Assembly: GCF_017921895.1 (NCBI RefSeq) | Contig: NZ_JAFIDN010000001.1 | Coordinates: forward strand, 496,001 to 560,000 | Reading direction: 5' to 3' | Length of the DNA: 64,000 nt | Source of the DNA: Natronogracilivirga saccharolytica | GTDB taxonomy: Bacteria > Bacteroidota > Rhodothermia > Balneolales > Natronogracilivirgulaceae | In this document: piece after piece, positions 12,603 through 22,480 of the stretch | Layout of the letters: each line of letters starts with the position of its first letter | Position numbering within the stretch: the stretch's first letter is position 1 | Made by a program: the position numbers and the translations under genes | The notes under the pieces: model-generated | The model's database searches: none | Seen by the model: only the letters and a program-made list of their open reading frames with translations | What the model was told of the DNA's origin: nothing

Positions 12603-15254
12603 CTACTTATTTTCCTGTTGAGCGATGGCCTCCTGGGCTGCCGCAAGTCTGGCGATAGGCACCCTGAATGGAGAACAGGAGACATAATCAAGCCCCTGCT
12701 TGTAACAAAATGCAATGGACTCAGGGTCTCCCCCGTGTTCTCCGCAAATGCCAAGCTTGAGTCCGGGCTTGGTTGCCCGTCCGAGATCCGCCGCTTCTGC
12801 AACAAGTTTACCGACGCCTTTCTGGTCCAGAGTCTGGAAGGGATCGTGCAAAACAATTTTCCGCTCCAGATAGTCCGGCAGAAACTTACCGATATCGTCC
12901 CTGCTGAAACCGAATGTCATCTGGGTCAGGTCATTTGTTCCGAATGAGAAAAAGTCTGCATGCGGAGCAATTTCATCGGCAACAAGTGCGGCCCTTGGCA
13001 CCTCAATCATGGTACCGATCAGATAATCGATGCGTGTTCCCTTGTCCTTGAACACCTTTTCTGCCGTTTCTTTAATGACGTTTTTCTGGTCAATAAGCTC
13101 ATCGCCGGATCCGATCAGCGGTACCATTATTTCGGGAAGAACCACAGCTCCCTGTTCTTTTGCTTCAATGGCGGCTTCCAGAATGGCACGGGTCTGCATT
13201 TCCGTAATTTCAGGAAATGTAATTCCAAGACGGCAGCCGCGGTGTCCGAGCATCGGATTCGCTTCATCCAGTGCTGCCACTCGGTCCTTGACCTTTCTGT
13301 AGGAAATGCCAAACTGCTTTGCCAGATCTTTTTTCTCGTCTTCGGTATGAGGGAGAAACTCATGAAGCGGCGGATCCAGAAGCCGGATTGTCACCGGATC
13401 ACCGTCCAGTGCCTTGAACAACCCGAGGAAATCCTCCTTTTGATAGGGAAGCAGCCGGGCAAGAGACTCGCGGCGTTCTTTTTCATTGTCGCTCATGATC
13501 ATCCGGCGAACCTCGACAATACGCTCACCCTCAAAGAACATGTGTTCGGTCCGGCAAAGGCCGATACCTTCAGCGCCAAACTCTTTGGCTTTGGTGGCAT
13601 CTTCTGCCCGGTCGGCATTGGTACGAACCTTCATGTCCCGGAACTCATCGACCCATTTCATGAACTTCTTGAAGTCATTGCTGAGTTTGGGCGGTTTGAG
13701 GGGAAGCTGTCCGAGCACCACTTCTCCTGTTGTGCCATTAATCGAAAGCCAGTCACCTTCATAGACCGTGTGATTGCCATCCGTCAGGCTTTTGTTTTTG
13801 TAGTTGATAACAATATCGTCGCACCCGACCACGCAGGGTTTTCCCCAGCCGCGTGCAACAACGGCAGCATGACTGGTCATCCCTCCGCGGGAAGTGATAA
13901 TTCCTTCTGATGCGTGCATACCGCCCACATCATCCGGACTCGTCTCAACCCGGGCAAGTATGACATTTTCACCTGTGATTTTAGCATCTTCGGCATCGTG
14001 AGAGGTAAAATAAACCTTGCCTACTGCCGCTCCGGGAGAGGCCGGCAGTCCGACGCCGATAACCTTTTTATCCTTGATTGCCTTGTCATCGAACTGGGGA
14101 TGGAGCAACTGGTCAAGTTGTGCTGTTGTGACCAGGTTTTTTACAGCTTCCTGCTTGTTTACGATACCTTCCTTTACAAAATCAACTGCTATTTTAATGG
14201 CTGCCGGGCCTGTTCGTTTGCCATTTCTTGTCTGCAGGATGAACAACTTTTCTTCCTGGATCGTAAATTCAATATCCTGCATGTTCTGATAGGCTTTTTC
14301 CAGCTTACGGGTCATCTCTTCAAGCTGATCATAAACTTTGGGAAGTGCCTTTTTGAGGTTTTTAATAGGCTCCGGGGTCCGTGTACCGGCAACGACATCC
14401 TCACCCTGTGCATTTGTAAGATACTCACCGTATAGTTTGTTCTCGCCGGTGTTTGGGTCCCGGGTGAACAATACCCCCGAGCCGCTGGTCTCACCCATAT
14501 TGCCGAATACCATGGCCTGGATGTTGACGGCGGTTCCGATCAGCCCGGTAATTTTGTTGATCTTCCGGTACTTTTTGGCGCGTTCGCTGTTCCATGATCC
14601 GAAAACGGCATTGATTGAAAACTCAAGCTGTTCCATCGGGTCATTGGGAAACATAAATCCGGTTTCACGCCGGTAAATGGCCTTGAAACGATCGACCAGA
14701 TCGCGCAAGTCTTTGGCAGTAAGTTCGTTGTCTTCTTTTACCCCACGCTGGTCTTTCAGCTTCTGCATGGCACTTTCAAAGCTCTCGTGCGGAATGCCCA
14801 TGACAACATCCGAAAACATATCGATAAAACGGCGGTAGCTGTCGAAAGCGAACCATTCATTGCCGGTGCGCTCTGCCAGACCTTCGGCAACCATGTCGTT
14901 CATCCCGAGATTGAGCACCGTGTCCATCATTCCGGGCATGGATGCGGCCGCACCGGATCTGACCGAAAGCAGCAACGGATTTTCCGGATCCCCGAAACCG
15001 GCCCCAAGCTGCTCCTCCTGAAACCGGATTCCTTCGCGAATCTGCTCTTTGAGCCCTTCTGGCCATTTCTGATTGTTTTTGTAATACTGGTCGCAAGTCT
15101 CGGTGGTAATCGTCATGCCCGGCGGTACGGGAAGTCCGGTTCGGCTCATTTCAGCAAGATTGGCACCTTTTCCACCAAGAAGCTCTCTCATGGTCCGGTC
15201 TCCGTCGGCTTTGCCGGCACCAAACTGGTAAACATATTTCTTTTTATCTGTCAT
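12603..15254 (-). CDS. ppdK: Pyruvate, phosphate dikinase
   Basis: The 883-residue length and full domain order are those of PPDK: an N-terminal ATP-grasp part ('GGKGANLAEMSRTGLPVPPG' near residue 28), a central phosphohistidine domain with 'GGMTSHAAVVARG' (catalytic His near residue 462), and a C-terminal PEP/pyruvate TIM barrel ending in 'GICGEHGGDP' with the catalytic Cys (near residue 838). It interconverts pyruvate + ATP + Pi with PEP + AMP + PPi in the cytoplasm. With pckG at 19.8 kb it gives the cell two routes to PEP and hence to gluconeogenesis. No PPDK regulatory kinase gene is adjacent. The start ATG is backed by a GGGG-rich ribosome site. The 550 bp upstream hold no gene. Confidence 0.96.
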   Translation of the reverse strand: MTDKKKYVYQFGAGKADGDRTMRELLGGKGANLAEMSRTGLPVPPGMTITTETCDQYYKNNQKWPEGLKEQIREGIRFQEEQLGAGFGDPENPLLLSVRSGAAASMPGMMDTVLNLGMNDMVAEGLAERTGNEWFAFDSYRRFIDMFSDVVMGIPHESFESAMQKLKDQRGVKEDNELTAKDLRDLVDRFKAIYRRETGFMFPNDPMEQLEFSINAVFGSWNSERAKKYRKINKITGLIGTAVNIQAMVFGNMGETSGSGVLFTRDPNTGENKLYGEYLTNAQGEDVVAGTRTPEPIKNLKKALPKVYDQLEEMTRKLEKAYQNMQDIEFTIQEEKLFILQTRNGKRTGPAAIKIAVDFVKEGIVNKQEAVKNLVTTAQLDQLLHPQFDDKAIKDKKVIGVGLPASPGAAVGKVYFTSHDAEDAKITGENVILARVETSPDDVGGMHASEGIITSRGGMTSHAAVVARGWGKPCVVGCDDIVINYKNKSLTDGNHTVYEGDWLSINGTTGEVVLGQLPLKPPKLSNDFKKFMKWVDEFRDMKVRTNADRAEDATKAKEFGAEGIGLCRTEHMFFEGERIVEVRRMIMSDNEKERRESLARLLPYQKEDFLGLFKALDGDPVTIRLLDPPLHEFLPHTEDEKKDLAKQFGISYRKVKDRVAALDEANPMLGHRGCRLGITFPEITEMQTRAILEAAIEAKEQGAVVLPEIMVPLIGSGDELIDQKNVIKETAEKVFKDKGTRIDYLIGTMIEVPRAALVADEIAPHADFFSFGTNDLTQMTFGFSRDDIGKFLPDYLERKIVLHDPFQTLDQKGVGKLVAEAADLGRATKPGLKLGICGEHGGDPESIAFCYKQGLDYVSCSPFRVPIARLAAAQEAIAQQENK

Positions 15255-15816: not shown

Positions 15817-17448
15817 ATGAAATCAGGTGTATTGGGGCTGACTCCCATACAAATTACAGGACTGTTTCTGGGCATTTTCGGCCTGATCCTGCCCTTTCTG
15901 CTTCCCCTTGAGACCCTTTCAACAGCCGGCCAGCTTGGCATGGGGATTTTTCTGATGGCGGCTGTTTTCTGGATGTTCGAGCCCATTCCCATTTATGCTA
16001 CATCCATGCTGGTCATTTTTCTTCAGATTATCTTGCTAAGTGCTCAGGGACCCGTTTATATGGATGCGGAGCTTCCGGTCAGCGAACCTGTGGCACTTGA
16101 AGACGAGACATGGCAGATACCCGCTTCCGCCCTGCAGGAGGACGGAACGGTTCTGGTGGCAAAAGAACCGGGTGAAACGGAGTCCGTCCGAGTCAATGTG
16201 ATAGACCGCAACGGCCAGCATGTCATTGTCCAAAGTGATGAGCTGAGCCGGGATCATGAAATTGTAACCGATCCCGGTCATCGCCTGGTCGACTATGAAC
16301 CCAACAGCTATACCGACTACATCGGAACCCTTGCCAATCCCATCATTATATTATTTCTTGGCGGATTCATGCTTGCCAGGGCATCGGTAAAGTACAATCT
16401 TGACAAAAACCTGACACGCTACCTGCTTGGTCCCTTCGGCACACGCCCGCGTTTTATTGTGCTTGGACTGATGCTGGTAACGGCTGCGCTCTCTGCTTTT
16501 ATGAGTAATACCGCAACCGCTGCCATGATGGTTACGGTTATATTGCCGATCATCGCGCAGCTGCCGCCCGAAGACCGTTTCAAATTCGGGCTCGCCCTGA
16601 GCATACCCATTGCCGCCAACGTTGGTGGTATCACAACGCCCATCGGCACGCCGCCCAACGCGATTGTAATAGCGGCACTCTCAGACTACGGAATTGACAT
16701 TTCGTTCACCGACTGGATTATCGTCGCAGCACCGCTGGTTGTGGTCATGCTTGTCATTGCATGGTTTCTGCTGCTCACCTTGTTTCCGCCGAGTGTGGAG
16801 CGGTTCAATCTGGATATGAAAGGCAAACTCAATGTCTCGCCTAAAGCAATCGGTCTCTACGTCATTTTTGGTGCCACAGTATTGCTCTGGATTACCGAGA
16901 ATCAGCATGGAATCCCCAGCAGCATGGTTGCTTTCCTGCCTGTTGCTGCTCTGGTTACAGGCCGCATATTAAATAAAGAAGACATCCAGAAGCTTCCGTG
17001 GGAGGTTCTGTGGCTTATGGCCGGCGGTATCTCGCTCGGGATCGGCATGGACAAAACCGGTCTTGCGGTCTGGATGATCTCCGGGTTTGACTGGGGAGCC
17101 ATGGGTTACATCACTCTGATTATTGCTTTTTCAGTGGTCGCCATCGCCATGTCCAATTTCCTTTCCAATACGGTTACCGCAACGCTGCTTATGCCCCTGG
17201 TAATCAGTCTGCACACATCAGGAGTTATGGGAGAAGATTTCAATCTTCTGATTACAGGAATTGTGATTGCTGTTGCCTGCAGTCTTGCCATGGCACTTCC
17301 CATTTCAACACCTCCCAATGCCATTGCCATGTCAACCGGTATTATCCGGACCAAGGATATGGCCAAAATGGGTGTTATCATAGGTGTGATCGGATTATTG
17401 ATCATACTAGCTTATGCCGTATTCTACTGGCCTCTTGTCACCAATTAA
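15817..17448 (+). CDS. SLC13/DASS-family sodium:anion symporter with an inserted soluble domain
   Basis: The 543-residue membrane protein matches the divalent anion:Na+ symporter family (dicarboxylate, citrate or sulfate). Two inverted-repeat signatures are plain: 'SNTATAAMM' with 'TPIGTPPNAI' (about residues 230-285), and 'SNTVTATLL' with 'STPPNAIAMS' (about residues 450-508); the SNT and TPP motifs bind Na+ and the carboxylate. Between the second and third membrane segments an insert of about 90 residues (77-165) is added. Its pattern 'IPASALQEDGTVLV ... ESVRVNVIDRNGQHVIV' resembles the membrane-proximal beta-barrel of HlyD/RND adaptor proteins. I have not seen this in standard DASS carriers. 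The response regulator gene follows after 18 bp, so it probably heads an operon. The substrate is not determined. Confidence 0.85.
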   Translation: MKSGVLGLTPIQITGLFLGIFGLILPFLLPLETLSTAGQLGMGIFLMAAVFWMFEPIPIYATSMLVIFLQIILLSAQGPVYMDAELPVSEPVALEDETWQIPASALQEDGTVLVAKEPGETESVRVNVIDRNGQHVIVQSDELSRDHEIVTDPGHRLVDYEPNSYTDYIGTLANPIIILFLGGFMLARASVKYNLDKNLTRYLLGPFGTRPRFIVLGLMLVTAALSAFMSNTATAAMMVTVILPIIAQLPPEDRFKFGLALSIPIAANVGGITTPIGTPPNAIVIAALSDYGIDISFTDWIIVAAPLVVVMLVIAWFLLLTLFPPSVERFNLDMKGKLNVSPKAIGLYVIFGATVLLWITENQHGIPSSMVAFLPVAALVTGRILNKEDIQKLPWEVLWLMAGGISLGIGMDKTGLAVWMISGFDWGAMGYITLIIAFSVVAIAMSNFLSNTVTATLLMPLVISLHTSGVMGEDFNLLITGIVIAVACSLAMALPISTPPNAIAMSTGIIRTKDMAKMGVIIGVIGLLIILAYAVFYWPLVTN

Positions 17449-17466
17449 TTTCAATCGCGCGAACCA

Positions 17467-17970
17467 ATGGAAAGATCAGACATATATATACTCTGCATTG
17501 AAGACGAACAGGAAGTTCTGGATGCCGTTGTGAGGGACCTGGAGCAGCTTGAGGAGCAATTCCCCATCGAAACAGCCAACACGGCAGAAGAAGGCAGGAA
17601 GATCATCGAAAAACTGCTGAATGACGGAATGAAGATCGGGCTGATTCTCTGCGATCACATTTTACCCGGCGATAACGGTGTTGAGCTGCTTATCGAACTG
17701 CACAAGGATGAACGCACCCATCCCGCCAGGAAGGTTCTGCTGACGGGACAGGCCGGCCTTGATGATACCGTAAAAGCACTGAACGAAGCGCGCCTGCATC
17801 ACTATATTGCCAAGCCCTGGAAAAAAGAGGAGCTGCTGCGCGTATCTGTTGACCTTCTTACCGATTATGTCATTTCCAATGAGGAAGATCTGCTTCCTTA
17901 TATGAAATCGCTTGATGCCGGAAAAATATCCGAGGCTATACGGACACGCCGCAATGTAAGCGACAGCTAA
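17467..17970 (+). CDS. Single-domain response regulator
   Basis: The 167-residue protein carries one CheY-like receiver domain (about residues 5-130). The acidic pair is E12/D13, the phospho-acceptor is D63 in 'LCDHILPG', the switch Thr is in 'LLTGQAG' and the conserved Lys is in 'AKPW'. The C-terminal 35 residues are helical with no DNA-binding domain, so it probably acts by protein contact or in a phosphorelay. The gene follows the SLC13 transporter by 18 bp and precedes a histidine kinase by 73 bp, which suggests that the kinase and receiver are partners and that transport is tied to the signal. Confidence 0.88.
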   Translation: MERSDIYILCIEDEQEVLDAVVRDLEQLEEQFPIETANTAEEGRKIIEKLLNDGMKIGLILCDHILPGDNGVELLIELHKDERTHPARKVLLTGQAGLDDTVKALNEARLHHYIAKPWKKEELLRVSVDLLTDYVISNEEDLLPYMKSLDAGKISEAIRTRRNVSDS

Positions 17971-18043
17971 GTTATGAATAATACCGGGTAAACGGGCACA
18001 TTACACTGATGCAATCCCGCCTTCCGGGCAGAAGAGCGACATT

Positions 18044-19501
18044 ATGATACTCAACTTCGCAAAAAACTGGCTGCAGGATCCCACGAGAATCACCGATCAG
18101 ATCGCCCGTTTTCTGGAAAACTCCGAAGAGTTTCATACCGAAGTTGTGGAGCGCGACAAAGACGATCTGTTCTTCTCGGAAGGGGATTTTAATGAATCCG
18201 TTTACATTCTGCTTGAGGGAACCGTTCAGCTGTCGAAAACCACCCCCAAGGGAAGGGTAATCACCATTGACTGGCTGCGCCCGGGTGCACTGGTCGGGCT
18301 GATTTCATTTGTAACAGGCGAAGCCGTGCTCACCACAGCTGTAGCCGCAAGTCCGTGCAAGGCCATTAAACTCGATGAGTCCGACTTTCTTGATATGCAG
18401 CGTGGCAAAGGCGAAATTGCTCATCTTGCCCAGCAGCTGATAATCGGCAACCTGATCGACCGGTATCACCATGTAGTCTCTGTGCATGTTGAGCTTGAAA
18501 GTATCAATGAGACGCTTGAAAAAGAGCGGAATCATCTCCGGGAAGCACTGAAGCAGCTTGAAGACACCCAGCACCGGCTGATCAGCCAGGAGAAAATGGC
18601 AACCCTGGGTCAGCTTGTTGCCGGAATTGCACACGAGATCAACAACCCTGCCGCAGCGATGCTCCGGGCTTCGGACAATTTGATGGACTATCTGCCCGGT
18701 ATCGTACGCAAGGCTGATCCGGATGAACAGCTTTCATACGAAAAGTTCTTCAAAATCGGGCTTAAAAGAAAACTCCGCGATTCGGATGAGCAGCGCCGCA
18801 AGCTGAAGGAGTGGGAGGATCTTTATCCGGACCTGCCCCGCAGCCTGTTGCGCAAGGTAACATCCATGAGTGATGAGGCACTTGAAATCATCAGACACAA
18901 GCTTGGCGAACGGCCCGGCAAAAAACAGCGTGAAGAGCTGGAGAATATCATGCTGTTTTTCGAAAGCGGATACTTCCTGAAAAACCTGCAGTCCAGCACC
19001 AAGCGCATCGGCGAAATTGTGTCCAGCATGAAGAATTACAGCCGACAGGATAAAGGAAGCTATGAGAAAGCAGACCTGAGGGACGGCCTTAATGACACGC
19101 TGCTGCTGCTTTCGAACAGGCTGAAAAAGGTGGATGTGGTTCTCAATTTCTCGGATATCCCCCCGGTTAATGTTATTACTGGAGAAATCAACCAGGTGTG
19201 GACCAATATCATCATCAATGCCTGTGACGCGATGGGAGACAAGGGCGAGCTTGTGATATCATGCGGATATGATGACCGTTATGTCTGGGTCTCCATCAAA
19301 GACAGCGGCCCGGGCATTTCACCGTCCATGATCAATGAAGTGTTCAAAACCAATTTTACCACCAAGCAGCAAAACAGCAGCTTCGGACTGGGCCTGGGCC
19401 TGTCAATTTCCAAGCAAATTATTCAGAAGCACGGCGGACAGATAAAGGTGCAGAATGCCGAAGACGGGGGCGCGGAATTTACTGTTTTTATTCCACTTTA
19501 G
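18044..19501 (+). CDS. Histidine kinase with N-terminal cyclic-nucleotide-binding-type sensor
   Basis: This 485-residue cytoplasmic kinase starts with a cNMP-binding-type beta-roll (about residues 20-125: 'FFSEGDFNESVYILLEGTV' and 'GALVGLISFVTGEA'). A coiled coil (about residues 145-185) leads to the H box 'GIAHEINNP' (His near 197). The catalytic domain has an N box 'NIIINACDAM', G1 'DSGPGIS' and G2 'FGLGLGLSIS', so it should be active. About 110 extra residues, rich in charged helices, lie between the H box and the second dimerisation helix ('STKRIGEIVSSMKNYSRQ'). The sensor keeps the Crp-like fold but lacks an obvious arginine phosphate-binding cassette, so the ligand may not be cAMP. It has no membrane segment. 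The likely partner is the receiver protein just upstream. Confidence 0.9.
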   Translation: MILNFAKNWLQDPTRITDQIARFLENSEEFHTEVVERDKDDLFFSEGDFNESVYILLEGTVQLSKTTPKGRVITIDWLRPGALVGLISFVTGEAVLTTAVAASPCKAIKLDESDFLDMQRGKGEIAHLAQQLIIGNLIDRYHHVVSVHVELESINETLEKERNHLREALKQLEDTQHRLISQEKMATLGQLVAGIAHEINNPAAAMLRASDNLMDYLPGIVRKADPDEQLSYEKFFKIGLKRKLRDSDEQRRKLKEWEDLYPDLPRSLLRKVTSMSDEALEIIRHKLGERPGKKQREELENIMLFFESGYFLKNLQSSTKRIGEIVSSMKNYSRQDKGSYEKADLRDGLNDTLLLLSNRLKKVDVVLNFSDIPPVNVITGEINQVWTNIIINACDAMGDKGELVISCGYDDRYVWVSIKDSGPGISPSMINEVFKTNFTTKQQNSSFGLGLGLSISKQIIQKHGGQIKVQNAEDGGAEFTVFIPL

Positions 19502-19825: not shown

Positions 19826-21664
19826 ATGAAGCATCCAAGCTGGGTTAAGCATGAAGAGCTTAAAAAATGGGTAGAAGAGACTGCCGCCCTGACCAAGCCC
19901 GACAATATTGAATGGGCTGACGGATCCGAAGAAGAAAATGACAGACTGTGTCAGCTGCTCGTTGACGGCGGAACTTTTGTGAAGCTCAACGAAGAAAAGC
20001 GGCCAAACAGTTTTGCCGCTTTTTCCGATCCTTCTGACGTTGCCCGCGTCGAAGACAAAACCTTTATCTGCAGCAAGAGAAAATCCGATGCCGGTCCGAC
20101 CAATAACTGGATGGATCCGGATGAAATGAAGGGCAAGCTCAACAAGCTCTATGACGGCTGCATGAAGGGACGCACCATGTATGTCATTCCTTTCAGCATG
20201 GGCCCCATCGGCTCCCCGATTTCCCATGTAGGTGTTGAAATCACCGACTCCGCATACGTTGTGGTAAACATGCGCATCATGACCCGTATCGGAAAGAAGG
20301 TAATGGATGTCATCGGAAAGGATGGCGAGTATGTGAAGTGTCTGCACTCCGTAGGTGCTCCTCTTGAGAAAGGTCAAAAGGATGTACCCTGGCCGTGCAA
20401 TAAGGAGAAGTACATCACCCACTTCCCCGAAGAGCGCAAGATCATGTCTTTCGGTAGTGGATATGGTGGAAATGCCCTGCTCGGCAAGAAGTGCTTTGCT
20501 CTCAGAATTGCCTCCACCATGGCCCGCGATGAAGGCTGGCTGGCCGAGCACATGCTCATTCTCGGTGTAGAATCCCCGAAGAAAGAGAAAACCTATGTGG
20601 CTGCGGCATTCCCGAGTGCCTGTGGCAAGACCAACTTTGCCATGCTCATCCCGCCGAAAGAGATGGAAGGATGGAAAGTCAGCACCATTGGTGATGACAT
20701 TGCATGGATCAAAAAAGACAAGGAAGGTCAGCTCCGTGCAATCAATCCTGAGGCTGGATATTTCGGCGTAGCTCCGGGTACCAATGACAAGTCGAACCCG
20801 AACGCCATGGCCTCCATCAGTAAAAACACCATTTTCACCAACTGTGCTCTTACCGAGGACGGCGATGTATGGTGGGAAGGCAAAACCAAAGAGCCCCCTG
20901 CAAATCTGACCACCTGGCAGGGTGAGAAGTTCGATCCCAATTCCGGCAAACCTGCCGCACATCCAAATGCGCGGTTCACTGCTCCGGCTTCACAGTGCCC
21001 GTCCATCGACCCGAAGTGGGAAGACCCGGCCGGCGTACCGATCAAAGCGTTTATCTTTGGCGGCCGCCGCAGTACTGCCGTACCGTTGGTATATCAGTCC
21101 GTTAACTGGAACTTCGGTGTCTATCTCGCCGCTACCATGGGTTCAGAGATGACAGCCGCTGCTGCCGGTACTCTCGGTAAAGTTCGCCGTGATCCGTTCG
21201 CCATGCTGCCGTTCCTTGGCTATCACATGGCCGATTACTTCAACCACTGGTTGCAGATGGGTCGCGAACTCCCCAACCCTCCGCGTATCTTCGGCGTTAA
21301 CTGGTTCCGCACCGACGAAAACGGCAAGTTTATCTGGCCCGGTTTCGGAGAGAACATGCGCGTTCTCAAGTGGATCGTTCAGCGTGTGAATGGTGAAGCT
21401 TTCGCTCTGGAGAGCCCGCTTGGCTGGATGCCGACACACGAAGATCTCGACTGGAGAGGATTGGAAAACTTCACCGAAGATCAGTTCCATGATCTGATGA
21501 CGGTTGACAGTGATGTCTGGAAGGAAGAAGTACTCGGACACGAGGAACTCTTCTCCAAACTGTACGACCGGCTTCCGAAAGAATTCCTTTTCATGCGTGA
21601 ACTGCTGCGCTCAGGACTGTGGCGTTCACCCAAACGCTGGGGAATGGAACCGGAGCGGTTCTGA
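19826..21664 (+). CDS. pckG: Phosphoenolpyruvate carboxykinase (GTP)
   Basis: The 612-residue length and motifs are those of the GTP-dependent class, not the ATP class. The P-loop with the hyper-reactive cysteine is '[13 protein letters not shown]' (Cys near residue 266). Further conserved segments are 'IGDDIAWI', '[14 protein letters not shown]' and '[15 protein letters not shown]'. It converts oxaloacetate + GTP to PEP + CO2 + GDP in gluconeogenesis or runs in the anaplerotic direction, with Mn2+/Mg2+. A GGAG ribosome site precedes the ATG, and a strong terminator lies 40 bp after the stop, so the gene is monocistronic. Confidence 0.97.
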
Positions 21665-21802: not shown

Positions 21803-22480
21803 TCAGGAAGCGGAGAGCCGGAACATTATCGGCAGGGAATAACGCACTTTCACCGGTCTGCCGCGTTGCCGTCCGGGAGAAAACTGCAGCTGCTTGACTG
21901 CTTCAAGTGCTGCCTCATCACATCCTCCCCCGATACCTCTTACTACCCGGGGATCTACCACATTGCCCTGCTCATCAATGACAAACTGAATAACCACCCT
22001 TCCTTCAATACCTGCATTGCGTGCGATTTCCGGATACCGCAGATTTCTGTAAACTGCGGACATGCCACCCAGCAGCACGGGCATTTCTTCAACTATGGTA
22101 AATATTTCATGCTCATCAAACTCTTCCTCATCATCTTCAGGTAAAGCGGGGGGAGCTGAGACGAAAAGTCCTTCCTCAAGAGTAAAATCTGTACCCAGGT
22201 CATAGAAAACTTCGTCGGCAATTTCCTCGTTGGGAACCATTCTTGGTGCAGGAGGCCGCGGTGGCGGTGGCGGGCGCATGATCTGCTCCGTCCTGATGAT
22301 ATCTTCCATCTCAATGATTTCCGGCTCAACATGACTGATCGTGAATTCCGGGCTGAATGTCAGGTTGATCCGGAAGATAACTATGAACACAATCAGCGTG
22401 ACGATCAGCCCTGCCTGGAGATTAATCATGTAGTAATCTCTCAAATCGGCGTTATCTTTCTTCCACTTGTACAATGACAT
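21803..22480 (-). CDS. TonB-family energy transducer
   Basis: The 225-residue protein has the TonB plan. A short cytoplasmic N-terminus and one membrane helix (about residues 22-42) are followed by a proline-rich stretch 'MRPPPPPRPPAPRM' (about residues 68-81), an acidic periplasmic linker rich in Glu/Asp, and a C-terminal TonB domain (about residues 135-225) with 'YPEIARNAGIEGRVVIQFVI' and 'AALEAVKQLQFSPG'. It couples proton-motive force from ExbB/ExbD to outer-membrane receptors; neither partner is in the window. The only TonB-dependent receptor seen is at 53.7-56.5 kb. An AGAGG ribosome site is present. The very acidic linker fits a halophile. Confidence 0.92.
   Translation of the reverse strand: MSLYKWKKDNADLRDYYMINLQAGLIVTLIVFIVIFRINLTFSPEFTISHVEPEIIEMEDIIRTEQIMRPPPPPRPPAPRMVPNEEIADEVFYDLGTDFTLEEGLFVSAPPALPEDDEEEFDEHEIFTIVEEMPVLLGGMSAVYRNLRYPEIARNAGIEGRVVIQFVIDEQGNVVDPRVVRGIGGGCDEAALEAVKQLQFSPGRQRGRPVKVRYSLPIMFRLSAS

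Follow-up and report, generated by a model that had tools for sequence, protein, structure and literature searches.

A DASS carrier with a TM3-TM4 insert that is probably homologous to the membrane-proximal domain of RND adaptors

The window analyzed here, a stretch of 64,000 nucleotides from Natronogracilivirga saccharolytica, contains a gene that probably encodes a DASS elevator carrier whose periplasmic TM3-TM4 loop is enlarged by a scaffold-borne homologue of the membrane-proximal (MP) domain of RND adaptors. The carrier proper is an ordinary DASS member, and what is new is where the insert's otherwise known fold occurs. According to a 2015 review, MP domains are confined to adaptors of RND and ABC transporters whose periplasmic domains are large (PMC4446572). 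A search of the open-access literature for DASS carriers with an MP-like or large periplasmic insertion returned only the small insertion of LaINDY and human Oca2. An earlier note on this DNA had remarked that no DASS carrier of this kind was described, and none was found in that literature.

The carrier gene (15817-17448, forward strand) encodes a protein of 543 amino acids. Its product clears the curated cut-off of the TIGR00785 model (260 bits vs 198.6; E=3.4e-77) and is recognized by Pfam as Na_sulph_symp (PF00939, E=5e-49). VcINDY is the nearest solved structure and the best PDB match, and an AF2 model of the whole carrier (pLDDT 88) reaches a Foldseek TM-score of about 0.82 on it. The VcINDY fold is accompanied by two inverted repeats with SNT motifs, the combination that marks a DASS/SLC13 protein. 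One SNT lies at the HPin tip (residues 230-232; 16504-16512, forward strand), where it aligns with the VcINDY SNT and is invariant in A2; the other lies at the HPout tip (residues 450-452; 17164-17172, same strand), where it aligns with the second VcINDY SNT and is conserved in A2. The fold, both SNT motifs, the TPPN motifs and a match to the full DASS model are common to the carrier, VcINDY and bacterial DASS/SLC13 Na+/dicarboxylate symporters. We infer a Na+-coupled, dicarboxylate-type DASS elevator carrier, with the substrate deduced from the motifs. The difference lies between TM3 and TM4, where VcINDY has no domain and the present carrier has about 86 residues more.

This extra soluble segment had been noticed at residues 77-165, and the strings quoted from it are indeed present in frame. 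Its assignment to the loop between the second and third membrane segments needs correction. Three helices precede the insert in the AF2 model (residues 10-28, 36-54 and 59-74), and in the alignment with VcINDY it falls between residue 65 and residues 73-77 of that protein; together these place the insert between TM3 and TM4. TM3 (residues 59-74; 15991-16038, forward strand), an AF2 helix aligned with VcINDY 33-65, is the last helix ahead of the insert. The inserted domain, predicted to be periplasmic, occupies residues ~78-164 (16048-16308, forward strand), is absent from sister carriers and is modeled by AF2 as a beta-roll. TM4 (residues 175-192; 16339-16392, forward strand) is the first membrane helix past the insert in the AF2 model, and a short helix at residues 165-173 precedes it. 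Lysine and arginine (K+R) are concentrated in the N-terminus (2.8) and in the TM4-HPin segment (3.1), and the insert is acidic (K+R 6.6, D+E 12.9). This charge distribution, taken with the VcINDY fold, puts the insert on the periplasmic side, and topology and charge together predict a location next to the inner membrane.

In DASS carriers, the scaffold is made of TMs 1-4 and 7-9, and in LaINDY, the DASS exchanger of Lactobacillus acidophilus, a smaller TM3-TM4 insertion protrudes on the periplasmic side close to the dimer interface (PMC7553777). By analogy with VcINDY and LaINDY, the insert would therefore be expected close to the dimer axis, carried by the stationary scaffold. The LaINDY insertion occupies the identical TM3-TM4 place but is short, about 20 residues longer than in VcINDY when judged by the start of the TM4 region (95 vs 75). 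Human Oca2, an SLC13-like protein with a GOLD-like luminal domain, also combines the DASS fold with an extracytoplasmic beta domain, which has been modeled at the dimer interface (PMC10372470). However, this domain differs in kind from the insert and sits ahead of the carrier core, not between TM3 and TM4 (PMC10372470).

The relationship to adaptors is first apparent in sequence profiles. TIGR01730 (RND_mfp) matches carrier residues 95-159 (16099-16293, forward strand) over model positions 249-315 of 322, which correspond to the membrane-proximal C-terminus of RND adaptors, at E=0.0034 for the whole carrier and 1e-4 for the insert alone. The same model matches 13 of 33 inserts (best 1.2e-6), while a CzcB-type model matches two of these inserts and MdtA one; no unrelated family scored better than 0.004 on the 33. 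A reading of the carrier as a whole RND_mfp adaptor was rejected, the lipoyl/barrel-sandwich and beta-barrel domains, to which most adaptors add a hairpin, being absent and the TIGR01730 match covering only the last ~65 of 322 positions, at 21 bits vs a cut-off of 94.9. The profile matches are those of an adaptor MP domain, and all scores stay below the cut-offs set for whole adaptors, as one domain on its own should. Pfam gave nothing convincing on the 33 inserts, no family matching more than one member, and it likewise leaves the MP region unannotated in four adaptors tested.

Profile-profile comparison points the same way. Aligned by hhalign with 17 adaptor MP regions taken from related genomes, the insert alignment scored 35.2 (E=1.8e-6, probability 90%), compared with a mean of 10.7 (sd 2.3, maximum 19.6) for 120 column shuffles and with 12.1 and 14.3 for reversed profiles. 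A search with the insert profile over 395 genomes of one phylum, at E<0.01 per genome, returned seven DASS carriers and eleven weaker matches, where chance alone would give about four. Of these eleven, nine exceed the TIGR01730 cut-off as RND adaptors, all matched at the C-terminal MP region, and the remaining two are RecX and a SusD-like ORF. As an example, an adaptor (L165) reads IPESATYEQQGIVYVYKVEKDTAKNVVVDVIERIDNMALIKSGVNKGETVI where a carrier (L051) reads IPTRALKDDNTVLVITEPGKTEAVRVDVVERNGQHVIVRSEELSSDRAIV. The insert has mostly lost the glycines that typify adaptor MP domains (GL..GD). A second match in the carrier's own genome (E=0.4), to an ORF that looks prolyl-oligopeptidase-like by eye, was dismissed as a chance match.

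The predicted fold agrees with the profiles. AF2 models, built on shallow alignments of 33 and 46 sequences, give a beta-roll of six strands whose core has pLDDT ~90, both for the isolated insert and within the whole carrier. Its N-terminal strand is split (88-89/92-93), the strand at 98-102 is followed by a helical turn (103-105), and further strands lie at 111-117, 120-125, 127-131, 135-139 and 148-150. The signature of the adaptor MP domain consists of a strand with a helical turn, a meander, a hairpin and a split N-terminal strand (PMC4446572), and the predicted strand order of the insert fits it. Foldseek matches to the insert are mostly adaptors, namely CusB, AcrA, MexA, TriABC, MacA, ZneB (~0.9-1.0) and BesA, with an overall probability of 0.8-1.0, though none reaches E<0.001 and the N-terminal barrels of F1-ATPase and FliI are interspersed, FliI at rank 1. 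The matches include 5a4g, a construct that combines an N-terminal metal site with a membrane-proximal domain.

Small beta-barrels look alike, as the F1-ATPase and FliI barrels listed by Foldseek illustrate, and the insert might be a small beta-roll unrelated to adaptors, its resemblance to the MP domain being convergent. The insert profile also found no adaptor among PDB sequences at E<5; its top match there, a repetitive designed TIM barrel, was discarded. Convergence is nevertheless improbable, because the sequences match as well (TIGR01730 in 13/33, hhalign well above shuffles) and the open genome search returns almost only adaptors, at their MP region. Profiles, the shuffle-controlled profile-profile score, the genome search and the predicted fold thus agree in favor of the likeness to the RND-adaptor MP domain that the earlier note had drawn. 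Taking AcrA, MexA, CusB and MacA as examples, the adaptor MP domain and the insert are alike in sequence profile, strand order, helical turn and split N-terminal strand. They are also alike in place, periplasmic and beside the inner membrane, the side being predicted for the insert. In adaptors, however, the MP domain forms the C-terminus of a stand-alone protein with four domains, whereas here it is embedded in a carrier that lacks barrel, lipoyl and hairpin domains.

Full-length relatives of the carrier were gathered from 98 related genomes and the GTDB contig collection. When sought in these homologues, the insert of ~86 amino acids proved to be kept in 36 of the 75 carriers of the tree set, the others having a loop of ~20-25 amino acids or less. 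Among the carriers compared, those of four Balneolales families (f1, f2, f4 and f5) have it, as do Bacteroidales including Alkalitalea, Natronoflexus and Perlabentimonas; the carriers of Alkalitalea saponilacus and Natronoflexus pectinivorans (L075, L077) are examples. A loop of ~20-25 residues takes its place in Balneolales family f3, Fibrobacter and one group of gut Bacteroidales; the f3 sister carriers are ~60% identical in the shared part. In a tree of the carrier core alone, a single change of state suffices for the insert, which is compatible with one origin. Family f3 may either have lost the insert or have branched before its gain, and the core tree fits both. Two Fibrobacter DASS carriers (L107:3867-5732 and L109:4875-6704) extend ~120-150 residues beyond the last helix, and Pfam recognized nothing in the extra C-terminal residues of the L107 carrier.

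The conserved core of the insert reads W-x-[IV]-P-x-x-A-[LIV] ... V-x-V ... V-x-S ... I-V-x-x-x-x-H-x-L. Across relatives W, P and Y are invariant, and A, V, S, H and L nearly so. In the adaptor-type motif quoted in the earlier note, the 'DG' is not kept in relatives. Over 39 pairs, the median dN/dS is 0.098 for the insert vs 0.048 for the carrier core, which indicates that the insert is under purifying selection though faster-evolving than the core. Close sister carriers without the insert might suggest a neutral or unstructured loop expansion lacking a fold. Such a reading is scarcely credible given the pLDDT of ~90 over the core, the invariant W, P and Y and a dN/dS of ~0.10; the structure predicted is a beta-roll, neither a non-barrel fold nor an unstructured segment.

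Carriers with the insert belong to some soda-lake bacteria. The insert-bearing Bacteroidales carriers (L066, L069, L075-L088, L106) branch inside Balneolales f4 (L018-L026) and are mostly accompanied by the regulator and kinase genes described below. This branching suggests horizontal transfer of the carrier module. Several hosts of these Bacteroidales carriers are named as soda-lake isolates or bins.

Immediately downstream of the carrier, after 18 bp, lies a gene for a receiver-only response regulator of 167 amino acids (17467-17970, forward strand; PF00072, E=1.3e-14), followed by one for a histidine kinase of 485 amino acids with an N-terminal cNMP-binding-type domain (18044-19501, forward strand; PF00027, PF00512, PF02518). 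This cluster of carrier, receiver-only regulator and cNMP-kinase (15817-19501; loci L051-L104, L106, L107, L110 and L112, Fibrobacter included) is conserved in Balneolales and Bacteroidales and is possibly a carrier-linked signaling module; a literature search returned no description of it. Regulator and kinase genes follow the carrier in most loci, insert-bearing and insert-less alike, and in Fibrobacter the carrier gene is followed by that of a second carrier, then by kinase and regulator. As they also stand beside insert-less carriers, the module probably predates the insert.

The conserved cluster invites a reading in which the insert senses or modulates in the periplasm and signals the state of substrate or envelope, through the carrier, to the downstream cNMP-kinase and regulator. 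There is a precedent for transporter co-sensing in E. coli, where DctA is presented as a co-sensor with the kinase DcuS (PMC8307970). Insert-less sister and Fibrobacter carriers, however, have an equivalent kinase and regulator, so the insert is not needed for the link between carrier and kinase, and its role as a necessary connection was rejected. No ligand pocket was identified in the insert either, and a sensory function of this DctA/DcuS-like kind is doubtful.

Other neighbors vary. In family f1, the carrier cluster is flanked by genes for pyruvate phosphate dikinase (12603-15254, reverse strand) and a GTP-type PEP carboxykinase (19826-21664, forward strand), a setting that would fit a role of the carrier in C4-dicarboxylate metabolism. 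A TonB-type gene lies at 21803-22480 on the reverse strand (PF03544, E=8e-23) and is the only TonB-type gene here confirmed by Pfam. The TonB-type neighbor lies upstream of the carrier in some loci (L066, L069, L076, L078-L081, L083-L085 and L088), and its position and orientation vary by clade without being kept throughout. In gut Bacteroidales, a gene for a DcaP-type outer-membrane porin (L113:6130-7443) is found directly downstream of an insert-less DASS carrier.

The earlier note had proposed that the carrier might contact an outer-membrane or periplasmic partner. A docking role is conceivable in principle: in adaptors, MP domains serve to dock proteins (PMC4446572), TonB-type genes occur near 18 insert-bearing loci and none of 16 insert-less loci, and other DASS relatives, themselves insert-less, adjoin the porin gene just described. 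The carrier would then form part of a trans-envelope uptake route. However, what an adaptor MP domain contacts is the pump in the inner membrane (PMC4446572), and the present carrier lacks the hairpin, lipoyl and barrel domains with which adaptors extend to the outer-membrane channel; both points disfavor contact with the outer membrane. No adaptor or TolC-like gene was recognized beside the carrier. The TonB-type neighbor is inconstant in position, orientation and presence, and its adjacency was discarded as a hint of a partner. Contact with an outer-membrane partner is consequently unsupported, and docking of a separate periplasmic or outer-membrane partner in a trans-envelope route is unlikely as a whole.

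For the MP-like domain in the TM3-TM4 loop, the likeliest function, put forward tentatively, is a local one: the insert could cap or gate the dimer at the inner membrane or offer a docking surface there, as the analogy with LaINDY and with adaptors would allow. Standing on the stationary scaffold, the domain would not ride the elevator and would stay put during its movement. As a cap or docking surface, it would steady the dimer or control access to the periplasmic mouth, in a position comparable to that of adaptor MP domains, which sit on the periplasmic face of an inner-membrane pump. It would not be expected to span the periplasm. Against any such role stands the fact that sister carriers manage without the insert.

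A bolder proposal, to which we give little weight, is that an importer captured the pump-docking domain of efflux adaptors, which, in cis or by recruiting a periplasmic partner, would control uptake and report to the soluble kinase. An MP copy within a sodium-coupled importer would mark the domain as a module that can be reused in the periplasm. Carriers that are ~60% identical, with and without the domain, would constitute a natural pair in which to test its effect on an elevator transporter.
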